From Fulvivirga ligni (GTDB lineage: Bacteria; Bacteroidota; Bacteroidia; Cytophagales; Cyclobacteriaceae), in NCBI RefSeq assembly GCF_021389935.1, contig NZ_CP089979.1, forward strand, positions 62,001-126,000: a stretch of 64,000 nt of DNA, given 5' to 3'. Under the pieces are notes generated by a model. That model saw nothing but the letters and a program-made list of their open reading frames with translations, had not been told where the DNA came from and did no database searches. A program made the position numbers and the translations under genes. Shown here in pieces: positions 19,781 to 25,026 of this stretch. The number at the start of each line of letters is the position of its first letter. The stretch's first letter is position 1.

Positions 19781-20092
19781 GTCATATTGAAACGGCAGTG
19801 AGATATCTATAAATTAGAAGGTGGGCGACAGGTTAGTACTACTCACTACATAGATCTCCCCTAACGTCCAGATGACTTTAAAACGAGTCAATTTGAGTAT
19901 GCATAAAACAAATCTTGCTGCCCAGTCGTGCGGCAAAAGAACATTGAAAAGCAGTCTTATCTCAAGTCCTTAGTGGCAGTTGTGGTCTATGAAATACTCC
20001 AGCTCTCGGAAGACCTTGCAGCAAGAAAGACTTTTTTGTTACTTTTTTGGTCGACTGCAAAAAAGTAAAGAACTGTGGCAAAGGAATGGCGA
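19781..20092. repeat. Structured repeat, uninterrupted copy A
   Basis: Fills most of the gene-free stretch 19639-20101. Part 1 (19781-19876) is an imperfect palindrome with GTCAT-like and ATGAC ends. Part 2 (to about 20092) is shared with 22686-22937 and 24700-24945, and holds a perfect 11-bp hairpin (TTACTTTTTTG with CAAAAAAGTAA, 20039-20068). In the other copies an IS110 element sits exactly between the two parts; here GATGACTTTA reads straight through, so this is the empty site. No convincing ORF. Confidence 0.85.
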
Positions 20093-20101
20093 AAACGAAT
20101 G

Positions 20102-20380
20102 TTAATTAGGGCTTAGAGTCACAAATAGAGTATCACTCCATTCATGCTCCTTACCGGGCTTTTGTGCCACAACCAAAAAATCATCCCTGTATTCTGAGTT
20201 ATTAACAATCAATACTCCTCCTCGCTTAATTATTAGTTCATTTGCCTCTGAAAATGTTAATCCTTCTAAATCAGGCACATACATAACGCAGTGAGTGGAA
20301 GCATATTCTTGCTTAATTAATAAAAGAGGTACTAGTAAGATAACGCCTACAACCAAAACAATTAACCATTTATTCTTCAT
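20102..20380 (-). CDS. Membrane-anchored single PASTA-domain protein
   Basis: A 92-residue protein: a membrane helix (about 5-22), a short linker, then one PASTA domain of about 58 residues (VPDLEGLTFSEANELI at the start, VVAQKPGKEHEWSDTLFVTLS at the end, fitting the pattern VPdl.g.t..eA...l, ...q.P.....). PASTA domains bind peptidoglycan precursors or act in cell-wall complexes; here the domain faces the periplasm if the helix is an uncleaved anchor. It is 52 bases downstream of yoeB, so it may be transcribed with the toxin-antitoxin pair. A single copy without kinase or transpeptidase is uncommon. Confidence 0.75.
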   Translation of the reverse strand: MKNKWLIVLVVGVILLVPLLLIKQEYASTHCVMYVPDLEGLTFSEANELIIKRGGVLIVNNSEYRDDFLVVAQKPGKEHEWSDTLFVTLSPN

Positions 20381-20432
20381 AGATACCCCAAATACAATTA
20401 TTAGTACGATAATTTTTCTTAATCATATCTAC

Positions 20433-20687
20433 TCAATAATGCCTTCTACACTGTAAAATATAAAGACTTTCATTTTCCACCTTATAAACTAATCGATGTT
20501 CATGGTTTATTCGCCGTGACCACCAACCGGAAAGATTGCCCCTTAAAGGCTCAGGTTTTCCGATGCCTTCAAAAGGTGTCCGTTGGCATTGCCTGATGAG
20601 CTCATTAATTTTCCTTAAGATTTTCTTATCGGTTTGCTGCCAGTAGATATAATCCTCCCAAGCGGGAGACAGAAAAATAATTTCCAT
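20433..20687 (-). CDS. yoeB: YoeB-family ribosome-dependent mRNA interferase toxin
   Basis: An 84-residue RelE/YoeB-fold toxin that cleaves mRNA at the ribosomal A site. All residues needed for YoeB activity are present at the E. coli positions: Glu46 (KPEPLRG), Arg65 (NHEHR), His83 and Tyr84 at the very end (CRRHY). The start MEIIFLSPAWEDYIYWQQTDKK is typical. Its ATG overlaps the yefM stop by one base (TAATG), the normal toxin-antitoxin order with antitoxin first. Predicted to be neutralised by YefM and repressed with it. Confidence 0.95.
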   Translation of the reverse strand: MEIIFLSPAWEDYIYWQQTDKKILRKINELIRQCQRTPFEGIGKPEPLRGNLSGWWSRRINHEHRLVYKVENESLYILQCRRHY

Positions 20688-20941
20688 TAATCTTCAATAA
20701 GGTCTTTTTTCAAGCCTTTTCCATGCTCATATTCTTCTATGCCTTTAGCCAACCGATCGGCATTTTTTGGGCTACTTAGAAGATAAAGTGTCTCCTGAAT
20801 ACTTTCATAATCAGATTTCGACATGACCACCACATCTTCACCATTAGCTCGAGATACGTATAGTGGATCGTGAGATACGAAGACTTTATCTAAAAAGCTC
20901 TTTAGGTTTTGCCTGAAGTTAGAATAATTAGTTACTTCCAT
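20687..20941 (-). CDS. yefM: YefM-family antitoxin (Phd/YefM)
   Basis: An 84-residue antitoxin. Residues about 1-55 form the Phd/YefM DNA-binding fold (NYSNFRQNLKSFLDKV, then DPLYVSRANGEDVVVMSKSDYESIQETLYLL), and the tail (about 60-84, acidic and Lys-rich) is the disordered part that wraps the toxin. It is expected to bind its own promoter, which lies in the 20942-21028 spacer. The pair is within the repeat/IS110 region, typical of mobile stabilisation modules. Confidence 0.93.
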   Translation of the reverse strand: MEVTNYSNFRQNLKSFLDKVFVSHDPLYVSRANGEDVVVMSKSDYESIQETLYLLSSPKNADRLAKGIEEYEHGKGLKKDLIED

Positions 20942-21028
20942 ATTCTAAAATAACTGATTCGTTCGTATTGTACAACATTATGTACAATAAAGTTTATGCA
21001 ATATTGGCGAAATGAGTTTTTTCAGAAT

Positions 21029-21122
21029 GTCATATTGAAAGGCAGGAGATATCTATGAATTTGAAGGTCGGCGACAAATCAGTACTACTCACTAAATAGA
21101 TCTCTCCTAAGGTACCAATGAC
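21029..21122. repeat. Imperfect palindrome of the structured repeat, left part, copy B
   Basis: About 94 bases beginning GTCATATTGAA and ending CCAATGAC, with inner arms GATATCTATG and CATAGATCTC facing each other. Copies also at 19781 and 23038. The IS110 element begins directly after its terminal ATGAC. About 24 bases before it (ggcgaaatgag...) are also found before the palindrome at 23038. Confidence 0.85.
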
Positions 21123-21130
21123 GTAATAAA

Positions 21131-22450
21131 CTAAATAGGTATTTGTTCAAGCTCATAACCTAATTCTTTAGCTGTTTTTATTAGCCACTTTTCTCTATGA
21201 AGCTGCATTTTTTCTTCATATGCTTTGATCCCTTTTTCTGTGTAGTCAAGACCTTTTACCATAAGCCGCCAGTAGAGTACTGCCAGTTTTCGTGCTGTGG
21301 CTTTAGTCGCTATTCCAGGACCTCTTTTGCTTTTTAATCTGCGCCCAAAAGCACCTAGTGCTATCTTTTTGCTTTCAATTAAACTTTGGGCAAGTTGCCT
21401 AAATATTTGTCCAGCCTTCGGCCTGTACTTTCTGTTTCTGGTTTTGTTTTTCTTGCCGGACTGGTGTTGACCTGGAGATAACCCTAGCCATGAAGTGAAA
21501 TGTTTCTCGCTTGGCCAATTATAAAGTTCCAGACCTATTTCCGAATACAATTGTAGCCAGGTATAATCGGTAATGCCCGGCAAACACGTAGCATCTTTGC
21601 CTGAAAAAATTTTGAGTAGGTGTCCTCCTAAGTGGTCAATATCAGGCTTATTATGCCTAACTGGTTTTCGGTCTTTAACAGACTCTATTTCATTTTTGCT
21701 TTGCATATCTGAATCGTAATTATTGACCCGTTTCATAACTTCCTCTAGTTTATGGTCACATGCCTGTATTTGTTGCTTATAAAATTTATAACCGCTGAAT
21801 GCCTGTTCCAAAGCAAACAACCCAGCCTCGGTATAATAGCCTGAAAGCGCCTTGAGGACTTGAGATGCCTTTTTTTCTCTAATACTGCTATGGCACAGGG
21901 ATAAGAGCTTTTGGGCATCACGTTCTCCTGACAGGATAGCTTCTATGATTGCCAGACCACTGGCTCCATGTACCTGACTGAGCACCTCTTTGAGTCGAAT
22001 ATTCATCTCAATTAGTGACTTTTGCATATGATTTACATGCATAGAGGCTGTTCTCAGATGATCTTCTCTCAAGCGCTGGTAAGCACGAACTTCCTTTACT
22101 TGAGCATCGGGAACAAAACAGCGATTCAACAAACCATGACTATGGAGTTGCTGAATCCATTGACAGTCCTTTACATCAGTCTTTCGACCTGGTACTTGTC
22201 TAGTCTGGCGCCCATCTACTAACCAGACATCTAAACCTGCTGATTCAAGGATCTCATAAAGGATGATCCAGTAAACACCTGTAGCTTCCATAGCCACTGT
22301 CTCGATCCCCTCTGATAATAAATAGGAAGATGCCTCTCGAAAACTTTCAGTGAAGGTCTCAAAAACTCGAACATCCTTGTTTTCTAAGGACACAAAAATG
22401 TGCTTGGCACCTATATCTATGCCTGCAGCATTTGCTCTCATCTTTTTCAT
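21131..22450 (-). CDS. IS110-family transposase (DEDD recombinase), intact copy
   Basis: A 439-residue transposase if started at the ATG at 22450 (MKKMRANAAG). The frame stays open for 28 more codons upstream, but that part lies in the untranslated end and is unlike the family. The N-terminal RuvC-like DEDD domain has AGIDIGAKHIFVSLE, the Glu of VAMEATGVYW and the Asp pair in GRKTDVKDCQWIQ. The C-terminal transposase_20 domain has LPGITDYTWLQLYSEIG, WLGLSPGQHQSG and the catalytic-serine region RQLAQSLIESKK. IS110 enzymes work with a bridge RNA to recombine donor and target without classic inverted repeats. Confidence 0.93.
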   Translation of the reverse strand: MKKMRANAAGIDIGAKHIFVSLENKDVRVFETFTESFREASSYLLSEGIETVAMEATGVYWIILYEILESAGLDVWLVDGRQTRQVPGRKTDVKDCQWIQQLHSHGLLNRCFVPDAQVKEVRAYQRLREDHLRTASMHVNHMQKSLIEMNIRLKEVLSQVHGASGLAIIEAILSGERDAQKLLSLCHSSIREKKASQVLKALSGYYTEAGLFALEQAFSGYKFYKQQIQACDHKLEEVMKRVNNYDSDMQSKNEIESVKDRKPVRHNKPDIDHLGGHLLKIFSGKDATCLPGITDYTWLQLYSEIGLELYNWPSEKHFTSWLGLSPGQHQSGKKNKTRNRKYRPKAGQIFRQLAQSLIESKKIALGAFGRRLKSKRGPGIATKATARKLAVLYWRLMVKGLDYTEKGIKAYEEKMQLHREKWLIKTAKELGYELEQIPI

Positions 22451-22685
22451 GACTAAAATATTTAAAAGATAAACAAAGACCTGTAGGATGAAATATTGTA
22501 CACGACAGACTACCAATCGGACATTCCTAAACAAGGAAGTACCATACTTTGTGACTCCTTTCTATCCAACCATGCTCGAGGACAGGCAAATTGCACTATA
22601 CGAGGTACGGCTATATTGTACAGGCCACTTCTATCTTAACGTCATTTCGTTTTGTGCGGTTGGGTACCAAATGTTCGGTCTCGAG
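22451..22685 (-). ncRNA. Candidate bridge RNA region of IS110 copy 1
   Basis: The 235 bases upstream of the transposase start carry no convincing gene and are identical in copy 2 (24465-24699). In IS110-group elements the long untranslated end before the recombinase encodes the bridge RNA. Small stem-loops can be drawn (TTCCT/AGGAA around 22524-22540), and TACCAAATG near 22666 resembles the target-flank TACCAATGAC. The RNA ends and its guide loops cannot be fixed by eye. Confidence 0.45.
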
Positions 22686-23022
22686 ATGACTGTGGCACGA
22701 GTCAATTTCAGCATACATAAAACAAGACTTGCTGCCCAGTCGTGCGGTGAAATAATATTGAAAAACAAGCTCATCTCAAGTCCTTAGTGGTAGTGACTGT
22801 CTATAAAATGATCCAGTTCTCGGAAGACCTTGCAGCAAGAAAGACTTTTTTGTTACTTTTTTTGGTCGATTGCAAAAAAGTAAAGCAACCGTGGCGATGG
22901 AATGCCAAAGTGATAATCGCATTACAAATGCGGAGCTCTACAAATCCTCGTTATAAATAAGGATTAAGTTGGATCAGTGAGCAGTTTCGTAAGTGGAGAC
23001 ACCTACGAAGGCGAAATGAGTT
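22686..23022. repeat. Structured repeat, right part, copy B
   Basis: Starts at the ATGAC right of IS copy 1 and parallels 19872-20092 and 24700-25026. It includes a TTACTTTTTT / AAAAAAGTAA hairpin near 22854-22885 and, shared with copy C, an AATCCT/AGGATT stem-loop near 22945-22970 and a TTCGTA-type stem with a short loop near 22985-23010. No credible coding region. Copies A, B and C differ at many single positions, so they are older than the IS insertions. Confidence 0.8.
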
Positions 23023-23037
23023 TGAGTTTTTTAGAAT

Positions 23038-23132
23038 GTCATACCGAACGGCAGTGAGGTATCTATGAATTTGAAGGTGGGCGACAGGTTAGTATTACTA
23101 ACTGCATAGATCTCTCCTTACGTACCAATGAC
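23038..23132. repeat. Imperfect palindrome of the structured repeat, left part, copy C
   Basis: About 95 bases from GTCATACCGAA to CCAATGAC, with the same inner arms as the copies at 19781 and 21029 (GTATCTATG facing CATAGATCTC). IS110 copy 2 starts directly after its ATGAC. Confidence 0.85.
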
Positions 23133-23140
23133 GTAATAAA

Positions 23141-24464
23141 CTAAATAGGTATTTGTTCAAGCTCATAACCTAATTCTTTAGCTGTTTTTATTAGCCACTT
23201 TTCTCTATGAAGCTGCATTTTTTCTTCATATGCTTTGATCCCTTTTTCTGTGTAGTCAAGACCTTTTACCATAAGCCGCCAGTAGAGTACTGCCAGTTTT
23301 CGTGCTGTGGCTTTAGTCGCTATTCCAGGACCTCTTTTGCTTTTTAATCTGCGCCCAAAAGCACCTAGTGCTATCTTTTTGCTTTCAATTAAACTTTGGG
23401 TGGGCAAGTTGCCTAAATATTTGTCCAGCCTTCGGCCTGTACTTTCTGTTTCTGGTTTTGTTTTTCTTGCCGGACTGGTGTTGACCTGGAGATAACCCTA
23501 GCCATGAAGTGAAATGTTTCTCGCTTGGCCAATTATAAAGTTCCAGACCTATTTCCGAATACAATTGTAGCCAGGTATAATCGGTAATGCCCGGCAAACA
23601 CGTAGCATCTTTGCCTGAAAAAATTTTGAGTAGGTGTCCTCCTAAGTGGTCAATATCAGGCTTATTATGCCTAACTGGTTTTCGGTCTTTAACAGACTCT
23701 ATTTCATTTTTGCTTTGCATATCTGAATCGTAATTATTGACCCGTTTCATAACTTCCTCTAGTTTATGGTCACATGCCTGTATTTGTTGCTTATAAAATT
23801 TATAACCGCTGAATGCCTGTTCCAAAGCAAACAACCCAGCCTCGGTATAATAGCCTGAAAGCGCCTTGAGGACTTGAGATGCCTTTTTTTCTCTAATACT
23901 GCTATGGCACAGGGATAAGAGCTTTTGGGCATCACGTTCTCCTGACAGGATAGCTTCTATGATTGCCAGACCACTGGCTCCATGTACCTGACTGAGCACC
24001 TCTTTGAGTCGAATATTCATCTCAATTAGTGACTTTTGCATATGATTTACATGCATAGAGGCTGTTCTCAGATGATCTTCTCTCAAGCGCTGGTAAGCAC
24101 GAACTTCCTTTACTTGAGCATCGGGAACAAAACAGCGATTCAACAAACCATGACTATGGAGTTGCTGAATCCATTGACAGTCCTTTACATCAGTCTTTCG
24201 ACCTGGTACTTGTCTAGTCTGGCGCCCATCTACTAACCAGACATCTAAACCTGCTGATTCAAGGATCTCATAAAGGATGATCCAGTAAACACCTGTAGCT
24301 TCCATAGCCACTGTCTCGATCCCCTCTGATAATAAATAGGAAGATGCCTCTCGAAAACTTTCAGTGAAGGTCTCAAAAACTCGAACATCCTTGTTTTCTA
24401 AGGACACAAAAATGTGCTTGGCACCTATATCTATGCCTGCAGCATTTGCTCTCATCTTTTTCAT
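23141..24464 (-). pseudogene. IS110 transposase, frameshifted by a 4-base duplication
   Basis: Codes for the same protein as copy 1 up to the RQLA region before the serine motif, then an extra TGGG (TTTGGGTGGGC in place of TTTGGGC, about 23397-23404) shifts the frame, giving a stop after HPKFN. The remaining C-terminal part with SLIESKK (to 23141) is out of frame. The N-terminal fragment keeps the DEDD domain but loses the serine-bearing end of transposase_20, so it is probably inactive alone but could be supplied in trans by copy 1. Confidence 0.92.
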
Positions 24465-24699
24465 GACTAAAATATTTAAAAGATAAACAAAGACCTGTAG
24501 GATGAAATATTGTACACGACAGACTACCAATCGGACATTCCTAAACAAGGAAGTACCATACTTTGTGACTCCTTTCTATCCAACCATGCTCGAGGACAGG
24601 CAAATTGCACTATACGAGGTACGGCTATATTGTACAGGCCACTTCTATCTTAACGTCATTTCGTTTTGTGCGGTTGGGTACCAAATGTTCGGTCTCGAG
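24465..24699 (-). ncRNA. Candidate bridge RNA region of IS110 copy 2
   Basis: Identical by eye to 22451-22685. If the bridge RNA is made from here, copy 2 could still be mobile when transposase comes from copy 1. Confidence 0.42.
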
Positions 24700-25026
24700 A
24701 TGACTTTAACACGAGTCAATTGGGGTATGCATTAAACAAGCCTTGCTGCCCAGTCGTGCGGTGAAAGGGGATTGAAAAACAGGTTCTTCTCAAGTCCTTA
24801 GTGGTAGTTATGATATATGAAATACTCCAGCTCTCGGAAGACCTTGCAGCAAGAAAGACTTTTTTGTTACTTTTTTGGTCGACTGCAAAAAGGTAAAGAA
24901 CTGTGGCGATGGAATGCCGAAAGCGATAATCGCATTACAAATGCTGGGCTCTACAAATCCTCGTTATAAACAAGGATTAGGTTGGATAGGCAAGCAGTTT
25001 CGTAGGTGGAGACACTACGAAGGCGG
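24700..25026. repeat. Structured repeat, right part, copy C
   Basis: Begins at the ATGAC right of IS copy 2 and runs to just before the serine hydrolase stop. It has the TTACTTTTTTG hairpin with one change (AAAAAGGTAA), the AATCCT/AGGATT stem-loop near 24955-24985, and a perfect 7-bp TTCGTAG/CTACGAA stem near 24998-25020. A short ORF crosses it (24875-25084) but the conserved features are stems, not codons. Confidence 0.8.

Follow-up and report, generated by a model that had tools for sequence, protein, structure and literature searches.

Among the nearest known counterparts of the elements treated here is the IS110 group of insertion sequences (IS), in which a guide RNA lies upstream of the transposase gene (tnp) (PMC11208160). 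The member IS621 has a DEDD recombinase and a long left end with a two-loop RNA, consisting of a target loop and a donor loop (PMC11208160, PMC11208158), and targets repetitive extragenic palindromic (REP) sequences in E. coli; bridge-RNA-guided targeting of REPs is already known. Here, we analyzed a stretch of 64,000 nucleotides from Fulvivirga ligni (contig NZ_CP089979.1, positions 62,001 to 126,000; hereafter the window), which contains two copies of an IS110-family transposon beside palindromic repeats. Sequence comparisons make it very likely that these transposons carry a 439-aa recombinase and an upstream two-loop bridge RNA that selects an arm of the palindrome. Like IS621, the Fulvivirga element has a DEDD recombinase and a long left end (LE) with a two-loop RNA, the latter predicted from sequence.

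For ISPpu9, ISPpu10, ISPa11, ISRm19, ISRm22, and ISPsy8, every copy was reported in 2006 to lie at one fixed point of a REP (PMC1525189). The Fulvivirga element resembles them in its fixed REP position; these six IS have Pseudomonas and Sinorhizobium hosts and other REP families, and the catalogue is older than the guide RNAs. CGTC-tagged REPs carry a GTC tag followed by AT, occur also in Bacteroidetes, often as dimers, and no dedicated transposase was reported for them (PMC3733652). Such REPs are described by a CGTC or TGTC tag before an AT-starting stem, with 8-9 bp in the stem and 4-5 nt in the loop. Unlike in that report, the repeats described here are targeted by an IS, the own end of which bears a GTCA foot. 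Natural redirection was noted for ISMch6 and ISXne4 (PMC11187229). In the open-licence full texts searched, no description of the Bacteroidota clade or of its guide order was found.

Elements in the window and point of insertion

An earlier note on the window had described near-identical IS110-family elements behind palindromes at 21029 and 23038 and a third repeat (copy A, 19781-20092) that reads through without an IS. Both descriptions hold. Each of the two palindromes precedes one element, and the two copies align over 1577 columns with 4 gaps and 0 mismatches, the sole difference being a 4-bp duplication; the junction of copy A is uninterrupted. The features are as follows.

21113..22680, minus strand: IS110-family element, copy 1, 1568 bp, boundaries from comparison with the same-genus genome G005 and other relatives; in element sense, LE starts with GACCGAACATTTGG and the right end (RE) finishes with ACGTCATTGGTA
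23123..24694, minus strand: IS110-family element, copy 2, 1572 bp, equal to copy 1 except for the 4-bp duplication, which shifts the transposase frame
21131..22450, minus strand: transposase/recombinase open reading frame (ORF) of copy 1, 439 aa from MKKMRAN, with DEDD_Tnp_IS110 and Transposase_20
23141..24464, minus strand: transposase ORF of copy 2, split into two frames by the 4-bp duplication
22681..22690 (copy 1) and 24695-24704 (copy 2), minus strand: left target half GTCATCTCGA beside LE
21029..21112 (copy 1) and 23038-23122 (copy 2), plus strand: remainder of the interrupted palindrome
19781..19876, plus strand: empty palindrome, copy A
22639..22646 (copy 1) and 24653-24660 (copy 2), minus strand: left subterminal inverted repeat AATGACGT
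21117..21124 (copy 1) and 23127-23134 (copy 2), minus strand: right subterminal inverted repeat ACGTCATT

The IS110-family domains PF01548 (E 2.1e-16) and PF02371 (E 1e-10) were both found above cut-off, and NF033542 matched with 210.5 bits (cut-off 140). The listed ORF of copy 1 comprises 467 aa from a TTG start upstream of MKKMRAN; since other copies have a stop inside this longer frame, translation likely starts at MKKMRAN. Those copies have an extra base just upstream of this start. In copy 1, tnp is preceded by about 230 nt and followed by about 18 nt of noncoding sequence.

The point of insertion was analyzed in the genome of F. ligni itself (G000; 6.52 Mb, single contig, the window being G000:C1:62001-126000) and in G005, which contains 11 element copies with 94-95% protein identity. 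The RE side reads TACCAATGAC in 8/8 own copies. The G005 copies end on the right with GTCATTGGTA in 11/11 cases, and the sequence to the left of LE depends on the site, being GTCATCCTGA, GTCAGCCTGA or GTCACACTGA in 10 copies and GTCATTGGTA in one. When the G005 flanks were joined at a point inside the arm, an exact empty repeat was obtained at 3/8 tested sites, compared to 0/8 for joining at ATGAC; this test leaves out the three tandem or nested copies L086, L074, and L087b. At 16/16 sites (8 in G005, 8 in G000) the joined flanks were closer to a listed empty arm with the inner crossover than with ATGAC. The distance to the nearest listed empty arm was 4 to 7 edits for the ATGAC join and 0 to 4 for the inner join, with a small gap in G000 alone (4 to 5 versus 2 to 3 edits). 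The flank joining and the constant right end in G005 point to an exchange inside the arm by an element carrying its own GTCAT. As far as the sequences tell, the exchange point lies about 5 bp inside the arm, directly after GTCATNTCGA, at a shared A, with the crossover placed within about 1 nt. ATGAC appears on both sides because RE itself supplies GTCATTGGTA, and on the evidence of GTCATTGGTA and TACCAATGAC the elements were therefore placed at 21113-22680 and 23123-24694.

The earlier note had taken ATGAC as the exact junction. The element would then prefer rare palindromes reading TACCAATGAC. ATGAC does flank the element on both sides in the window, but no empty arm with TACCAATGAC was found. 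A right-arm pattern search of the own genome gave 25 matches at ≤ 2 mismatches and 8 in the reversed control, so that some matches are due to chance; TACCAATGAC occurred at the 7 IS junctions only, whereas CGTCGANATGAC and similar were seen in the empty arms found. Together with the constant G005 right end beside variable left flanks, the larger number of edits, and the covariation of the donor guide with the right end (see below), this renders ATGAC as true junction highly improbable. The earlier note had itself named an ATGAC off the exact junction as contrary to its view, and this is what was observed; the anatomy is corrected here, and the reading of the repeats as targets stays.

Two side observations concern G005. 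In the tandem or nested copies L074, L086, and L087, an element's right end may itself have been used as target. A repeat at G005:C1:4069312 that reads GTCAAAGGTAGGC resembles a donor end and is possibly the scar of a lost element.

Predicted bridge RNA and covariation of its guides

The long noncoding region (NCR) upstream of tnp contains the predicted RNA, the parts of which are listed here, all on the minus strand.

22455..22643 (copy 1) and aligned stretch 24469-24657 (copy 2): predicted bridge-RNA region, aligned in 37 elements
22568..22612 (copy 1) and 24582-24626 (copy 2): target-binding loop unit (loop 1)
22575..22582 (copy 1) and 24589-24596 (copy 2): left target guide TCCTCGAG, 3' strand of the target loop
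22599..22607 (copy 1): possible right target guide, 5' strand of the target loop, weak support
22485..22567 (copy 1) and 24499-24581 (copy 2): donor-binding loop unit (loop 2)
22510..22517 (copy 1) and 24524-24531 (copy 2): left donor guide ATTGGTAG, which matches RE of the element itself
22539..22553 (copy 1): donor loop 5' strand (CACAAAGTATGGTAC), same-sense repeat of a stretch inside the left end

For the 37 aligned elements, RNAalifold predicted two units, each consisting of stem, internal loop, and stem-loop. In the four named helices, 96.0% of 924 cells were paired compared to 80.8% in shuffled and at most 50.1% in slid controls, and 174 cells were changed on both sides compared to 49.5. 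The structure was drawn from the consensus of the same alignment that was used for scoring, so that the slid control leans towards the structure; a small RNAalifold helix (145-147/155-157, 3 pairs, overlapping the donor guide) was removed before counting. In sense, the 3' strand of loop 1 agrees with the left target, and the 3' strand of loop 2 with the element's right end. Judged by sequence, the long end appears to hold a conserved two-loop RNA matching target and donor, as expected for the IS110 family.

Relatives were collected with one genome per species, yielding 124, of which 80 were kept. Among these loci, 48 were read (L100-L102 are copies of the same-genus genomes G001 and G002 that were already included), the omitted rest having mostly < 50% identity or being partial; L178-L194, G213 (L094, L095), and two G085 copies lie outside the analysis. 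L056 (G052) was read for the junction only and L134, L135, and L162 by eye only. Of the 48 relatives, 47 are labelled as Bacteroidota groups and one (L150) as a Desulfitobacteriaceae bin. The left flank was readable in 44 of them and starts with GTCA at the same place in 39, the exceptions being L104, L110, L117, L124, and L148. The distant L134, L135, and L162 (about 48% identity) have GCGTTAGGGA as left flank and, by eye, an apparent NNGTCC subterminal repeat at their ends. Judging from the flanks, many Bacteroidota relatives sit at other sites, with guides that match those sites.

The target loop could be read in 69/70 entries (L132 was missed). The test of the left guide comprised 52 rows, 49 of them with a left target (L098, L105, and L152 without), in which identical copies of the own genome and of G005 were collapsed to 2 and 3 rows; L117, L136, and L143 (same element as L115) and G005_L087b, which has GTCATTGGTA instead of a target on its left side, were omitted. 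The left target of L148 and, likewise, the right targets of G001a and G002, which the pattern missed or mispicked, were assigned by eye. Over 39 distinct elements, the left guide matched the left target at positions -6 to -3 with frequencies of 0.70, 0.89, 0.87, and 0.97, compared to a permutation expectation of 0.41-0.48 (p at most 5e-5), and at -2 with 1.00 compared to 0.90 (p 0.0013). Because the left-target pattern demands G or C followed by A before the junction, position -1 is uninformative and -2 contributes little. Exact agreement of the last five guide bases was seen in 29/39 elements, compared to a mean of 4.4 and a maximum of 12 in permutations. When 216 NCR columns were scanned against four flanks without a preset position, the left target reached z 10 and the left donor z 8, 95% of permutations being below about 3.5. 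Readable examples of guide and target are GCCTCAG with GTCACCCTCA, CTCAGAG with GTCACTCAGA, and GTTCGAG with GTCAGTTCGA. The left donor guide, tested on 18 distinct pairs out of 36 with patterns that fix positions -3, -1, and 0, covaried with the right end at -5, -4, and -2 (p ≤ 0.0053) and at -6 (p 0.041), and position -7 gave no signal.

The covariation between left guide and left target is strong. The own genome and G005 differ in the guide (TCCTCGAG versus TCCCTGAG) and also in the target. In G005, 10/11 copies have guide TCCCTGAG and GTCANNCTGA up to the junction on the left, and the 11th copy has a changed guide; this guide (TTGTCGAG of G005_L087b) fits the adjacent CAAAAGGAGACATC flank and was not counted. 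Guide and target also differ jointly between L107 and L110 and between L113 and L114, with one mismatch remaining in L114. Since such pairs have similar RNAs and change guide and target together, we argue that common ancestry is not the cause of the covariation.

In the proposed mechanism, the 3' strand of loop 1 (TCCTCGAG) would pair with one strand of the palindrome arm (GTCATCTCGA, up to the junction) and thereby choose the site, and the 3' strand of loop 2 (ATTGGTAG) would pair with the element's own right end. The strands would be exchanged roughly 5 bp into the arm, at the shared A; the arm's left half would then stay next to LE, and the remainder of the palindrome would gain a new GTCAT foot from the right end of the IS. 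Positions, crossover, RNA fold, covariation of guides with target and donor, and guide-following occupancy are read from the sequences; transcription of the RNA, a circular intermediate with abutted ends, an RNA-protein complex, and the chemistry would be as in published work on IS621 and on IS110/IS1111 elements.

Occupancy of palindromes and alternative explanations

Searching the own genome with the query yielded 84 matches; 8 are full-length elements (count based on the best 40 of 58 first-look candidates), and the remainder are mostly the neighbouring repeat. The protein search gave 11 matches, which correspond to these 8 elements, some of them being split into two pieces. Each of the 8 full copies detected lies in the same family of REP-like inverted repeats; the right arm holds 7 of them and the left arm one (L008; G000:C1:4106120-4107702, inverted). 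A search with a model of the palindrome gave at least 21 matches at E up to 1 among the best 150 of 924 first-look candidates, several of them being two strands of one site. The earlier note had seen in this repeat family the natural target of an IS110 element using a bridge RNA, with occupied and empty sites open to comparison; this is supported by the 8/8 copies and the strong covariation of guide and target. Copy A, which has CTGGA at -5 to -1, is an empty family member and not the exact pre-insertion allele.

Guide-matched CTCGA is present in 7/8 occupied but only 1/21 listed empty arms of G000 (Fisher p 4e-5), and CCTGA in 8/10 occupied compared to 9/33 listed empty arms of G005 (p 0.004). 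The 21 empty G000 arms come from the pattern list, from which an artefact within an IS end was removed and to which copy A contributed its left arm, and include free arms of occupied palindromes; right arms 3529201 and 3532062 (one reads CTCGG) and arm 6225632 are outside this list. For G005, the 41 pattern matches (reversed control 1) were reduced to 33 empty arms by removing 7 IS right junctions as well as the GTCAAAGGTA site, and the occupied arms count L086 and L074 and leave out L087b. Both lists are pattern-derived and not exhaustive.

An alternative is that the recombinase recognizes the palindrome by its shape, a hairpin or cruciform, with the RNA match being incidental. Targets do resemble palindromic repeats, and both arms are usable, as seen for L008. 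However, guide and target change together in near relatives (G000/G005, L107/L110, and, with the L114 mismatch, L113/L114), occupancy of palindromes within one genome follows the guide-matched bases, and the target of L104, by eye not palindromic, matches its guide over 7 bases. Recognition of shape is thus quite improbable.

Copying instead of targeting might also explain the shared site, if whole repeat units already holding the IS were duplicated or recombined and so gave rise to several of the copies. The flanks of the copies at 5442831 and 5444641 are near-identical, the window copies align over 1952 columns at 97%, the copy at 6479062 matches them too across palindrome, IS, and right-hand repeat, and L004 has on its right flank the same right-hand repeat in diverged form. 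Duplication rather than separate insertion may account for part of the 8 copies, namely 5442831/5444641 and possibly also the two window copies and 6479062. As a general explanation this is improbable, since L007, L008, and the L005/L006 pair differ by eye from the window copies in the right flank, L008 occupies the other arm, and the same kind of site with other sequences is used in relatives from other genera.

Several results weigh against selection of the arm by a bridge RNA as the favoured reading. The left guide gave no signal at position -7 (match 0.08, expected 0.07). The final base of the guide (AG) is unmatched in the G000 targets (AC or AA), which leaves the core dinucleotide unclear, and 9/33 listed empty arms of G005 are guide-matched yet empty. 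The p-values are optimistic because the permutations ignore relatedness. Rfam yielded no matching family, and no solved structure matched at E 0.001, ISCro4 appearing only at E 0.07. For the right target guide, complementarity in fixed registers (best uncorrected p 0.025 of 16 settings), the best local match (best p 0.049 of 5 settings), and windows over +1 to +110 (best p 0.12 of 7 settings) were tested, and none of the three holds after allowing for the settings tried; in the unbiased scan, this guide was at the top of its part with z 3.86, compared to a 95% level of 3.91. When the test was limited, after the scan, to the loop 1 5' strand (32 elements), family-wise p-values ranged from < 0.0004 to 0.036 over six settings, and a right target guide on this strand is possible. 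A same-sense match of this strand to the right flank was not found (two of 17 offsets at p 0.035 and 0.048).

Further observations concern the repeats and their neighbourhood. The repeat of about 300 bp following the palindromes (window 22696-22990, 24705-25000, and 19880-20092) makes up most of the 84 genome-wide matches. Of the empty G000 arms, 20/21 start with GTCA and 17/21 with GTCAT, starts which are favoured by the patterns that found them; this recalls the CGTC-tagged REP superfamily with its AT-starting stems (PMC3733652). A search for REP transposases gave 6 Y1_Tnp matches in the own genome. The one match near repeats was rejected as a REP transposase, as it is broken and set among unrelated hairpins; the broken Y1 transposase L201 (G000:C1:6225091-6225393) is flanked by CCCCGAAGGGGTGACA hairpins and lies near two REP arms. 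A toxin-antitoxin pair of the YoeB/YefM type is located between empty copy A and IS copy 1 (window 20433-20941). No relative of the element was found in the viral contigs searched.

Subterminal repeat, guide order, and relationship to known groups

RE and LE share a subterminal inverted repeat, which is 8 bp long in G000 and begins 32-40 nt inside the element end on the left. In 33 elements (31 distinct pairs), the two bases outside GTCA/TGAC agreed with frequencies of 1.00 and 0.87 compared to 0.50 and 0.44 after permutation, and 0 of 20,000 permutations were as high; the two inside bases agreed weakly (p 0.05 and 0.04), and bases further out did not agree. GTCA/TGAC itself is demanded by the search pattern and hence is no evidence for the repeat.

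A stretch of LE just inside the inverted repeat recurs, in the same sense, in the 5' strand of the donor loop. For this test 37 elements were used, 29 of them distinct, and elements with an unparsed left end or loop strand were dropped. The mean score was 6.4 compared to 4.2, and none of 20,000 permutations was as high; the reverse complement gave p 0.13. The matching stretch is up to 11 nt long, about 20-35 bp inside the left end and beside the inverted repeat (GGCATAATGAG in some relatives), and in the own element the match covers only 6 to 8 bases. In the contact scan, the donor-loop strand was top of the same-sense list for the LE flank (z 4.42, 95% level 3.83). Other windows came close (z 4.36 and 4.09; complement up to 3.97, level 3.88), and the scan alone is therefore not specific for this strand. 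We tentatively propose an extra donor contact beyond the description of IS621, in which the RNA might pair with the bottom strand of the LE stretch and the RE-LE junction (GTCAT...ATGAC) might be recognized as a REP-like unit, and consider it rather unlikely to be correct.

The features of the element are divided between the two known groups. As in the IS110 group, a long NCR lies upstream of tnp, whereas the IS1111 group has a downstream NCR and 7- and 3-bp terminal extensions (PMC11187229), neither of which was found. The inverted repeat, which in the IS110 group is only 2-3 bp long, has 8 bp in G000 and resembles the subterminal repeat of ≥ 7 bp in IS1111 (PMC11187229). The left (bottom-strand) guide 5' of the right (top-strand) guide, typical of the IS110 group, was not observed: each loop of IS621 has its left guide before the right one (PMC11208158), whereas in the Fulvivirga element both left guides are on the 3' strands. 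The order in loop 1 seems to be right then left, as reported for IS1111 and unlike ISEc21 or IS621 (PMC11187229, PMC11208158); if the weakly supported right guide is accepted, the guide complementary to the top strand comes first, as in IS1111 and its seekRNA (PMC11187229). The core of IS621 is CT, whereas donor and target in G000 share only an A.

The natural variation of these elements amounts to a large guide/target experiment, in which a relative with a 95%-alike protein and a few changed guide bases is found in another repeat family, and it suggests how RNA-guided transposons track host repeats. A branch of bridge recombinases with an apparently different guide order and a subterminal inverted repeat is useful for tests of the relationship between IS110 and IS1111. 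The added donor contact, if true, would link IS110 elements to the CGTC-tagged REPs, which have no known transposase.

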